From Chthonomonas calidirosea (lineage in GTDB: Bacteria > Armatimonadota > Fimbriimonadia > Fimbriimonadales > Fimbriimonadaceae), in contig CAMCWC010000006.1 in NCBI GenBank assembly GCA_945882415.1, forward strand, positions 62,001 to 126,000: DNA of 64,000 bases. Reading direction: 5' to 3'. The position numbers and the translations under genes are program-made. Below, one piece after another: positions 53,586-57,304 of this stretch. Numbering within the stretch: position 1 is the stretch's first letter; the number at the start of each line of letters is the position of its first letter. A model generated the notes under the pieces. The model worked only from the letters and a program-made list of their open reading frames with translations. It ran no database searches and was not told the origin of the DNA.

Positions 53586-53614
53586 TTGTAATTTTGGGTG
53601 GGTACCTGTAGACT
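53586..53614 (+). promoter_or_regulatory. Promoter of the DUF350-transglutaminase-channel operon
   Basis: TTGTAA (53586-53591), 17-base spacer, TAGACT (53609-53614). A 5' leader of roughly 70 bases follows, with a small hairpin TCCCA-AACA-TGGGA (53622-53635) and TGAGG five bases before the start codon. Unlike many genes here, this operon has a real leader. Confidence 0.65.
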
Positions 53615-53690: not shown

Positions 53691-54284
53691 ATGCAACTCA
53701 ATACAAACCTCGTCATTTTTGGCCTCTTCGAACTGCTGGCAACCCTGGTTCTAGGACTCGCGACCATCTTCGTCGTGCATCGTCGGGTTGAGAAGATGTT
53801 GGGCATCAATATCCAGGAAGCGATCGCGGCAAAGAATCACGCGGTGACGCTTTTTGCCGGAATGTATTCCTTCTGCCTCGTTTGGCTAACCGCCGAGAGT
53901 GTAGATCCGTCGGTAGACGCGCTTCGAACGATGGTTCAGGTCCGGGGTGTTTTGGAATTCAAAATGCTACTGATCGCGGCCGCCTACAGCATCATGCTGT
54001 TCACCGTCTCGGCCATCGTTGGTTCGGTTTTACTGTTAACGACCATCAAGGTCCTCACTACTGCCACCAAAAAAATTGACGAAATTGCCGACATTCGCGC
54101 TGGCAACCTTGCCACGGCCATTTTCATCGGTCTCAGCCTGCTGGCAAGCACCATCATCGCTCGCCCAGCCTTGGCGAGCCTTCTAGACGGACTTGTTAGC
54201 TACGACATGCTTCACAAAATCGGCGAAGAGGCGCAAGGTAATGCTCCGGTCGTGAGTCCAACTCCGGAGGTTCCCGTTCAATGA
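53691..54284 (+). CDS. DUF350-like membrane protein
   Basis: The start at ATG 53691 is set by TGAGG five bases ahead; the frame is open from 53598. The 197 residues contain four to five membrane helices: about 8-30 ('LFELLATLVLGLATIFVVHR'), 45-65, 95-125 ('LLIAAAYSIMLFTVSAIVGS'), and 150-170 ('NLATAIFIGLSLLASTIIAR'). 'INIQEAIAAKNHAVTLFAG' and 'IRAGNLATAIFIGLSLLAS' match the repeated motif of DUF350 (UPF0719) proteins, in which a charged 'E-x3-x-N-A' sequence precedes each helix pair. Function unknown. The next gene overlaps by 4 bp (ATGA). Confidence 0.72.
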   Translation: MQLNTNLVIFGLFELLATLVLGLATIFVVHRRVEKMLGINIQEAIAAKNHAVTLFAGMYSFCLVWLTAESVDPSVDALRTMVQVRGVLEFKMLLIAAAYSIMLFTVSAIVGSVLLLTTIKVLTTATKKIDEIADIRAGNLATAIFIGLSLLASTIIARPALASLLDGLVSYDMLHKIGEEAQGNAPVVSPTPEVPVQ

Positions 54285-55144
54285 TTAGTCGAGCCCTCGG
54301 TGCATTGGCGGCTTCGGTTCTCGGGGTGTGCTGGCTCAACGGCCAACTCGTTCAGATTTGTGGCGAGGCGATCCGGTACCCACAGAACCAGGTCAGCCCG
54401 CACAGCTACCGCGCATCCCCGAAGTCCAAGTACGAGGTTGACGAATCTGGCGGGAACTATGCCGTGAAGTACGCGTTTTCGGGCCCGGAATCGGTGAGCC
54501 TCCAGTGGAACTGGATGATGCAAAAAAGTGCCGTCGATGGGATTTGGAATTCCTATGGAATCCCGATGACCATGTTCAATCCGTACTCTCCTACTCCCGA
54601 CGTGATTGCAAGCCGGGAAAAGATTATGAAGTCCGGAGGCTTCAAGCAGGACAACAGCGTCATTCGACCCAACTATTCCGAAATCATGAGAGCCAATCGA
54701 AACATGGTCGCTCCAATCGTCGAATTGGCAAACAAACTTCAGCCAAATCCGACCCTTGCAGACCGAGTTTCGATGTGGCTGACGTTTTGCCAAGACATGC
54801 CCTACGGGATTCCACCCTCGCAAATCGATGGCAAATTCATTGGCGGAATGTTGCCACCAGCTAGTGTCCTTGCCGTCGGTTGGGGCGACTGTGATTCCAA
54901 ATCAACCCTGTTTGGAACGCTGCTCTCTTTTCACCCAAACGTAAAGATGGTCTTTGTTTCTGTTCCAGGCCATCAACTCGTCGGCGTGCGCGCTCAGGCT
55001 ATTTCTGGTCAAGACTCGATCGAGTTTGAAGGCGAGGAGTACGTGCTTTGCGAGCCCGTTGGGCTTGCGAGACTGCCGATGGGCAAGAAGAGCAGCCTGG
55101 TCACGACGATCGTATCTACCAGGCGCGTCCTGCCTTTTGAGTAA
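54281..55144 (+). CDS. Transglutaminase-like (papain-fold) secreted or anchored protein
   Basis: A 287-residue protein with an N-terminal hydrophobic leader (about 6-19). The C-terminal half carries the transglutaminase-like core: C204 in 'GWGDCDSKSTLFGTLL', H231 in 'VPGHQLVG', and an acidic residue in 'YVLCEPVG' (E258), in the expected order and spacing. Such domains are peptidases or amide-forming enzymes. It is the middle gene of a three-gene operon between a DUF350 protein and a channel-like protein, so it probably works at the membrane on the periplasmic side. The N-terminal half is unassigned. Confidence 0.75.
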   Translation: MISRALGALAASVLGVCWLNGQLVQICGEAIRYPQNQVSPHSYRASPKSKYEVDESGGNYAVKYAFSGPESVSLQWNWMMQKSAVDGIWNSYGIPMTMFNPYSPTPDVIASREKIMKSGGFKQDNSVIRPNYSEIMRANRNMVAPIVELANKLQPNPTLADRVSMWLTFCQDMPYGIPPSQIDGKFIGGMLPPASVLAVGWGDCDSKSTLFGTLLSFHPNVKMVFVSVPGHQLVGVRAQAISGQDSIEFEGEEYVLCEPVGLARLPMGKKSSLVTTIVSTRRVLPFE

Positions 55145-55149
55145 GAACC

Positions 55150-56499
55150 TTGGCTCTGCTCCGGATCAATCGAAAATCGGCAATCCTTGCGACGATCCTT
55201 GCCATCGTGCTCATCGTAAGCGTCATCAGCTTTGCGAATTTTTCTTCCCGTACTTCCGTCTGGCTGAGCGTTCTCACCGGGCAACTCAATCGTGATTTTG
55301 TTGGCCTGATCGGCTGGTTGGCACTGTTTGCGATTCTTGCGGCGGCCCTTGTTCTCTGCCTAAGAGGCGCCAAATTTGTCCACTTCACGCGCTTGAGTTG
55401 GGTCGTATCCGTCGTCTGCGCTACGGGCACGTTTGGCATTTGGGCCGTTGAGTACAACCGCCCCATCGAAAGCTATGGCTATGGCCAGTCCATCACCGAC
55501 GCAAACAGCCAGAGCGAATACCTGCAAAAGAATGTTCTCTCGTCGAAGGTGCACCCCACCGTAGTCCCGACCGGTCTCTTCATTCAATCCATCCACTTTG
55601 CCAGCGGCAACGAGGTCGATGTCACGGGCTACGTTTGGCAAAAGTATCCGGACGGCACGCCGAAGGAGCTAAGGCGCGGCTTCGTTTTGCCCGAAGCGAA
55701 GGACGCTTTTCACGAAGAGAACCTAACCCTGCGTGAGATTTCGCGGGTCAAGAAGAAGGACTACGAACTCCACGTTTGGTTCTTCACGTGCACTCTCCGG
55801 CAAGGCTACACGTACCAAAAATTCCCGATCGACCGCCAAAACGTTTGGCTCCGGCTTTGGCACCGTGACTTCGATAAAGGGGCCCTCCTCGTGCCGGATT
55901 GGGAATCCTACACCGAGCCGTTTAACCCGACCGCATTGCCGGGCCTCGACCAAGAATTCGTGCGAGAGGGCTGGACAACCCTTTACACCGGGTTCAGCTA
56001 CCAAACCTTCAAGTACTCATCTTCGTTCGGAATGGGCAAGTACGCCGAGTCGCCGCCGCACCCAGAGCTGTACTTCAACGTCGGCCTGAAACGGAACGTC
56101 ACCGGCCCCCTCATCACCCGAATCGTGCCCGTCATCGTCGTGGCGCTGCTTCTTTATGCCGCGCTGTACTTGACCCGACGCCAGGAGAAAAAGGGCGAAA
56201 TCGTCGGGTTCAACATCTTCACCGTCCTCAGCTACTGCGCGGCGCTCTTCTTCGTCATCGTCATCGACCACGCCACCGTCCGCTCCACCCTCGCGCCCGA
56301 AAGCCTGATCTACCTCGACTTTTTCTACTTCGTCCTGTACATCCTCACTGCCTTCGTTTCCCTCAACAGCATCCTCCTCGGCGTGAGCGACGACATCTGG
56401 ATCGTGGAATACCGAGACAACGCCATCCCGAACTACCTCTACTGGCCGATCTTCTTCAGCTTCATCTTCATCTGCACCCTCACGACCTTCACCCGCTGA
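55150..56499 (+). CDS. Membrane protein resembling a pentameric ligand-gated ion channel
   Basis: A 449-residue protein starting with TTG, 5 bases after the transglutaminase stop. Three N-terminal membrane helices (about 10-30, 51-71, 83-101) are followed by an extracytoplasmic beta-rich domain (about 135-315). This contains FPIDRQ at 225-230, the counterpart of the FPxDxQ motif of Cys-loop receptors, and 'YSSSFGMGKY'. Then come 'NVGLKRNVTGPLITRIVPVI' leading into helix M1 (about 318-341), M2 (352-373), M3 (385-410) and M4 (428-447). The C-terminal part follows the receptor plan closely; the three extra helices in front do not belong to known channels such as GLIC or ELIC. Gating or even channel function is inference. 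No Cys-loop disulfide is seen. Confidence 0.6.
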   Translation: MALLRINRKSAILATILAIVLIVSVISFANFSSRTSVWLSVLTGQLNRDFVGLIGWLALFAILAAALVLCLRGAKFVHFTRLSWVVSVVCATGTFGIWAVEYNRPIESYGYGQSITDANSQSEYLQKNVLSSKVHPTVVPTGLFIQSIHFASGNEVDVTGYVWQKYPDGTPKELRRGFVLPEAKDAFHEENLTLREISRVKKKDYELHVWFFTCTLRQGYTYQKFPIDRQNVWLRLWHRDFDKGALLVPDWESYTEPFNPTALPGLDQEFVREGWTTLYTGFSYQTFKYSSSFGMGKYAESPPHPELYFNVGLKRNVTGPLITRIVPVIVVALLLYAALYLTRRQEKKGEIVGFNIFTVLSYCAALFFVIVIDHATVRSTLAPESLIYLDFFYFVLYILTAFVSLNSILLGVSDDIWIVEYRDNAIPNYLYWPIFFSFIFICTLTTFTR

Positions 56500-56505
56500 C
56501 GTCGG

Positions 56506-56511
56506 TATAAT
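56506..56511 (+). promoter_or_regulatory. -10 box of tRNA-Gln
   Basis: Consensus TATAAT, 13 bases before the tRNA, just after the stop of the channel-like gene. A good -35 is not evident. Confidence 0.65.
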
Positions 56512-56524
56512 CACCAGCGGACGG

Positions 56525-56598
56525 TGCCGGATCGTCTAATGGCAGGACAACGGTTTTTGGTGCCGTACGTCTAGGTTCGAATCCTAGTCCGGCAGCCA
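56525..56598 (+). tRNA. tRNA-Gln (anticodon TTG), CCA encoded
   Basis: Acceptor TGCCGGA/TCCGGCA (perfect), anticodon stem ACGGT/GCCGT with loop TTTTGGT giving TTG, T-arm CTAGG-TTCGAAT-CCTAG, discriminator G and encoded CCA. Confidence 0.95.
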
Positions 56599-56662
56599 CA
56601 ACAACTCCCCGCTTTCCTCTGGGTAGCTCTCGCGTTGTCTTACGTTCGATCCTTTTTCAAGG

Positions 56663-57304
56663 TCAAACGGACTCATCGCGCTCGACCAACTGAGCTAGAG
56701 TTTTTTGGATTTGGGGATCTTGAGATGCGAAAAGTGTCCCAACGTCTTTGCTGAGCAGTCCCGGTCCAACCCGCCTGAACTCACGATACATACCGGCCAT
56801 CCACAGGTACTGGTCGATGTCTTTTGTGTTAAATTGGCCGTCGCAGTGCGAGCGAAGCTTTTCGAACCAGCCATAGAACTGGACGTAGTCCTGAGGCCAC
56901 ACCTGACGTTGCCCAAGGTGGTAAGCAAGCATCTTCAGCACGTACTGATCGAGGATCGGAAATGCAGAATCAATAAAGAAGTGCGTGTACTTTGAAGCGA
57001 AACTTCGGTGATTGCGGTTCCCAAGCGCTGCAATGCAATCAACTAGCTTGGGTCCTGTCGGCCGAGCCGGATCCGCCAGTACTTGCTGCACGTGCTCGGC
57101 CATTCTCCAGACCGCGTACACATTGGTGTTGTACAGAGAATTGACCGTAACAACCTTAACCAAGCAAGAGGCTAGATCGTCGTCGGGAAAGCTCTTAGCA
57201 ACAGCATCGAGCGCCTTGTCCGTCGTTTCCCAGGAAGGAACCATTGCATGAAGCATTTTGCCCGCTTCGATGTGCCGGTCCAGAATCCGAGGTAGCTCAG
57301 GCAT
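56663..57304 (-). CDS. Orphan protein of unknown function next to tRNA-Gln
   Basis: The frame is open far upstream, but the start is best placed at ATG 57304: TATGAT stands 7 bases ahead and the residues before lack protein character. The 213 residues are mostly helical and soluble. Conspicuous features are 'VVTVNSLYNTNVYAVWRMAE' near 50-69, 'FASKYTHFFIDSAFPILDQY' near 105-124, and 'DQYLWMAGMYREF'. The pairing of 'NSLYxTNxYA' with 'ASKYxHFF...PIxDxxV' recalls an uncharacterised family seen as lone accessory genes in many bacteria. I know no function for it. It lies just behind a tRNA and ends in a segment that looks like a tRNA D-arm. Confidence 0.65.
   Translation of the reverse strand: MPELPRILDRHIEAGKMLHAMVPSWETTDKALDAVAKSFPDDDLASCLVKVVTVNSLYNTNVYAVWRMAEHVQQVLADPARPTGPKLVDCIAALGNRNHRSFASKYTHFFIDSAFPILDQYVLKMLAYHLGQRQVWPQDYVQFYGWFEKLRSHCDGQFNTKDIDQYLWMAGMYREFRRVGPGLLSKDVGTLFASQDPQIQKTLAQLVERDESV

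Follow-up and report, generated by a model that had tools for sequence, protein, structure and literature searches.

Within the 64,000-nucleotide stretch of DNA analyzed here (the window), positions 53691-56499 carry three consecutive genes on the + strand, with ORFs at 53691-54284, 54281-55144, and 55150-56499. Genes 1 and 2 are joined by an ATGA 4-bp overlap and a 5-bp gap separates gene 2 from the TTG start codon of gene 3, coordinates and junctions being exactly as in the original prediction of a single three-gene operon. Identical junctions are found in a sister species of the same genus (genome G014, record JAIXQR010000001.1, locus L004), where the ORFs occupy L004 6512-7117, 7114-7977, and 7983-9332, and where the overlap, the gap, the TTG start and the lengths of the second and third products (287 and 449 aa) are all retained. 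The two species share 62.9, 63.1, and 78.6% DNA identity and 66.5, 64.8, and 81.3% protein identity in genes 1, 2, and 3, respectively, and 66-71% of the four-fold sites in genes 1 and 2 differ between them. Conservation of the junctions and product lengths at such low DNA identity in genes 1 and 2 argues that the operon layout did not arise by chance, and the preservation of overlap and spacing, open frames and nearly unchanged lengths over this divergence indicates that all three genes are maintained. Upstream of gene 1 is a promoter-like pair, TTGTAA-17-TAGACT (53586..53614, +), that ends ∼76 bases before the start codon. By itself the proposed promoter is weak, since it matches the consensus at 8/12 positions and shuffling the same 171 bases gave a best match this good or better 229 times out of 300, although it gains support from the sister species, in which TTGCCA-17-TAAACT is placed equally far (105 nt) upstream of the start codon with the same spacing. 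A search with PADLOC gave no defense matches.

Gene 1 (53691..54284, +) encodes a 197-aa integral membrane protein of the DUF350 (YjfL) type with ∼4 transmembrane segments by hydropathy, and its predicted DUF350 identity was borne out by a match to Pfam PF03994 (E 3.2e-10, 40.6 bits against a cut-off of 26). Members of the family have also been described from PspA-polyamine operons that encode a ligand-sensing potassium channel (PMC11237479). The likeness to these operons lies in the family itself and in the placing of a DUF350 protein beside the gene for a ligand-sensing channel; they differ in the type of channel, which conducts potassium, and in the partners, namely PspA, polyamine enzymes, DUF1190, and DUF2491 (PMC11237479).

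Gene 2 (54281..55144, +) encodes a secreted or N-terminally anchored protein of a transglutaminase-like cysteine-enzyme family (287 aa) that begins with a hydrophobic segment, as judged by hydropathy. An alignment of 12 family members, the window protein included, is in keeping with the predicted order of Cys, His, and Glu: Cys204, the predicted nucleophile within the motif GDCDSK (54890..54892, +), and His231, the predicted catalytic base (54971..54973, +), are invariant in 12/12, and position 258, at which the window protein has the predicted third triad residue Glu258 (55052..55054, +), is Glu or Asp. Members come from the phylum of the window, from Aeromonas and Pseudomonas, and from a haloarchaeon, and all share GDC..K. 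Transglut_core matched three of the 12 weakly (best E 0.0048), and in an hhalign comparison of the family with the Pfam transglutaminases of the genus the probability was 6.5% and the score 27.8, against a shuffle maximum of 15.5. From these profile comparisons gene 2 likely, though not provenly, belongs to the transglutaminase superfamily. Like the PF01841 superfamily and the LapG-type proteases (PF06035), it combines Cys, His, and an acidic residue with an N-terminal export segment; it differs from both in forming a family of its own with the GDCDSK motif, and neither model matches the window protein. Membership of the LapG family was not supported: no PF06035 match appeared in any of the phylum's 291 genomes, the window's own genome and the operon included.

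The Pseudomonas relatives of gene 2 are located in clusters of the Ter type (TerD, DUF475, ATP-grasp, and StiP) on megaplasmids, and other relatives stand alone. In these Ter-like stress clusters the relatives form tandem pairs (L016 3785-5582 and L017 4584-6387), with 27% mutual identity between the two members of the L016 pair. A further relative, in genome G025 (L011 5221-5554, -), is split across two frames close to a contig end and represents either a broken gene or an assembly error.

Gene 3 (55150..56499, +) encodes a 449-aa protein that was previously described as channel-like, with a Cys-loop-receptor-like layout but no settled function. Profile comparison upholds the receptor-like assignment, and the remainder of that description undersells the protein: it belongs, as a divergent member, with the pentameric ligand-gated ion channels (pLGICs; Pro-loop receptors), and is a very distant bacterial cousin of the ion channels of nerve receptors. 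When the gene 3 family was aligned using hhalign with four PF02931-positive reference pLGICs from the same phylum as the window, the probability was 95.2, with an E-value of 2.9e-8 and a score of 65.7 over 288 columns. The maximum score among the controls (120 column- or block-shuffled profiles and one reversal) was 26.0, and a score of 13.6 was obtained with the unrelated gene 2 family. Identity to the canonical pLGICs is ∼13% over the aligned columns. A sequence search of the PDB with the gene 3 profile was dominated by entries for GLIC, the proton-gated channel of Gloeobacter, the best being a GLIC chimera (E 0.0039); each single match is weak, and it is therefore the profile-profile result that carries the identification. 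Gene 3 has no Pfam or NCBIfam match. Since such a match reflects a detection threshold and is not a defining trait, its absence lowers the case for a canonical member and not that for homology.

The alignment is accompanied by the published signatures of the superfamily. A Pro-loop FPID (residues 225-228; 55822..55833, +) corresponds to the diagnostic pLGIC motif FPxD (PMC4795631), which is present as FPxD or YPxD in 5/5 family members. The pre-M1 Arg and M1 Pro motifs (PMC4795631) are represented by Arg315 and Pro327, 12 residues apart (56092..56130, +), a spacing that is present in 4/4 canonical pLGICs and kept in 4/5 family members, being absent only from the relative in genome G202. These motifs and four C-terminal helices are shared with GLIC and the other Pfam-positive Pro-loop receptors (PMC4795631), from which gene 3 differs in being invisible to Pfam and in possessing three extra hydrophobic segments at its N-terminus. 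Phenylalanines near the presumed pore positions are unusual, the register there being uncertain. AlphaFold models built from two sequences had pLDDT values of 36 for gene 3 and 44 for gene 2. The Pfam-positive canonical pLGICs are encoded at L057 4686-5756 (-), L058 3029-4141 (-), L059 4479-5540 (-), and L060 5185-6336 (+). They are distributed over three genomes of the phylum, among them G008, which belongs to the same genus, and G196, which carries two paralogues.

Hydropathy divides gene 3 into three hydrophobic segments at the N-terminus, a domain of ∼210 residues outside the cytoplasm, and four segments at the C-terminus. The N-terminal extension (55150..55461, +; segments at residues ∼3-35, 48-80, and 82-100, from hydropathy and alignment layout) precedes a ligand-binding-like domain (residues 105-314; 55462..56091, +), defined by its hhalign alignment to the pLGIC ligand-binding domain, and a four-helix membrane domain M1-M4 (residues 316-449; 56095..56496, +), defined by hydropathy and hhalign. 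DeCLIC has an added soluble domain at its N-terminus (PMC9897478), where gene 3 has the three hydrophobic segments instead. A tblastn search of plasmid records detected relatives of gene 3 in Acaryochloris, on a plasmid (5e-50), and in Vibrio, on a large replicon (3e-29), and a profile search of the phylum found one more, in G202 (2.6e-29). The Vibrio relative has a dCache match (6.8e-9) that falls below Pfam's own cut-off, and a related PDC sensor model passes; in the G202 relative a similarly long region separates the first two membrane segments. Prokaryotic ligand-gated channels in Cache and PBP-II contexts have been reported previously (Tasneem et al., 2004; PMC549065). Gene 3 shares with these Cache-fused acetylcholine-receptor-type channels a pLGIC core preceded at the N-terminus by additional membrane segments, and the Vibrio relative shares with them the Cache domain and a neighboring PBP-like gene (PMC549065). 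Where Cache-fused relatives carry TM-Cache-TM-TM, however, gene 3 has TM-short loop-TM-TM, with no Cache match in the window protein, and gene 3 shares its operon with genes for DUF350 and a transglutaminase-like enzyme. The N-terminus of gene 3 could be the Cache-fused layout minus its Cache domain. The layout fits but the similarity of the N-terminal hairpin to that of the Cache-fused relatives was not above shuffles, nor was that between the membrane segments of the two relatives that have a long periplasmic region, and Cache loss is for this reason left as a suggestion. In Vibrio, genes for a PBP-like protein, a permease, and the Cache-pLGIC form one overlapping operon (L014 3451-7702), the PBP-like protein and permeases being assigned by reading the sequence; this operon is a candidate for an amino-acid-gated channel.

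The three genes had been expected to represent a recurring three-part system. This was not supported by a neighborhood survey, which covered one phylum, plasmid and phage records, and one genome-contig scan that reached close relatives only. Among 291 genomes of the phylum, gene 2 was detected in five, gene 3 in three, and DUF350 in 21, and more than one of the three, in each case the full trio, was present only in the window's genome (G000) and the sister species (G014). In the remaining genomes searched, none of the three genes was found with another, and no relatives were found in the viral contigs and phages searched. In the distant relatives of genes 2 and 3 the neighbors are different; these relatives occur without each other and without DUF350, so that none of the partners is required. 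In both sister species the operon lies between an M24-type peptidase gene and tRNA-Gln; in seven other members of the genus only 42-107 bp, with nothing between, separate the peptidase gene from tRNA-Gln. The operon is therefore most simply explained, from this comparison of gene order, as a ∼2.9 kb gain in the ancestor of the two sister species, loss from the other members of the genus being less simple.

Between the sister species, the region 56080-57300, centered on tRNA-Gln (56525-56598), is of unusually high identity, and identity on its 5′ side is much lower. Four-fold differences amount to 0.26 in the last third of gene 3 and 0.22 in the gene downstream of tRNA-Gln, compared with 0.40-0.71 in the other genes compared. 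Purifying selection alone was rejected as an explanation for the 3′ identity of gene 3, given that four-fold sites are alike too and that this continues into the downstream gene. Because low synonymous divergence extends from the 3′ end of gene 3 into the next gene, a recombined tract, exchanged later between the lineages, likely runs from the last third of gene 3 through tRNA-Gln to that gene.

The reading favored here, held with as much doubt as confidence, is that this small operon, specific to its lineage, encodes an envelope chemosensor composed of a channel and two accessory proteins. We infer that the three proteins would work jointly, with gene 3 forming a homopentameric channel. A small solute would bind its extracytoplasmic domain and open a pore built of the last four helices, thereby converting an outside signal into an ion flux. 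Gene 2, exported by its N-terminal signal or anchor, would act in the periplasm as a cysteine enzyme of the papain/transglutaminase fold that hydrolyses or transfers an amide bond, and may either set the level of the channel ligand or modify the channel or the adjoining wall. In the original prediction the enzyme would process or attach a ligand or a fragment of the wall. Gene 1 may serve as an auxiliary membrane subunit or ion pathway. By analogy with acetylcholinesterase beside its receptor, the secreted enzyme might more specifically be an amidase or transpeptidase that makes or consumes the ligand of the divergent pLGIC, with DUF350 as an auxiliary channel subunit, but this version is improbable.

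Another view is that the locus is a neutral or loosely useful insertion of three unrelated envelope genes that the ancestor of the two species acquired in one step or successively and that are co-transcribed without forming one functional unit. The restriction of the operon to two sister species, the empty site in seven other members of the genus and the separate occurrence of the genes elsewhere in the phylum would all be expected, as would the faster evolution of genes 1 and 2 relative to their neighbors (65-67% against 85-97% protein identity). Such an insertion is harder to reconcile with open frames, conserved overlap and spacing, and nearly constant lengths in the face of the four-fold divergence of genes 1 and 2, and is considered somewhat unlikely.

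A low probability is attached to gene 2 being a LapG-like periplasmic protease regulated at the membrane by the product of gene 3 or gene 1, in which case the channel relative would be a non-conducting sensor. The GDCxxK motif followed by His and an acidic residue would fit this arrangement, one of the 12 gene 2 family members weakly matches the NCBIfam LapG model (E 0.034), and LapG is among the non-significant Foldseek matches to the poor gene 2 model, but PF06035 is matched neither by the operon nor elsewhere in the 291 genomes, and neither a LapA-type substrate nor a LapD-type receptor was noticed in the operon. That gene 3 is an unrelated membrane protein with pLGIC-like motifs by chance is very improbable: the missing Pfam match and the weakness of the best single PDB profile match would agree with it, whereas the hhalign probability of 95%, the clear shuffle controls, and the motifs in register do not.

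The gene 3 family adds a pLGIC subfamily that is not recognized by Pfam or NCBIfam and is known here from a cyanobacterium, Vibrio, and the phylum of the window, and the three-gene operon adds a new context for a pLGIC. DUF350, the function of which is unsettled, is thereby linked to a channel gene in a second context. Few bacterial pLGICs have known native ligands, and a co-transcribed periplasmic enzyme would offer a direct route to a candidate ligand for one of them.
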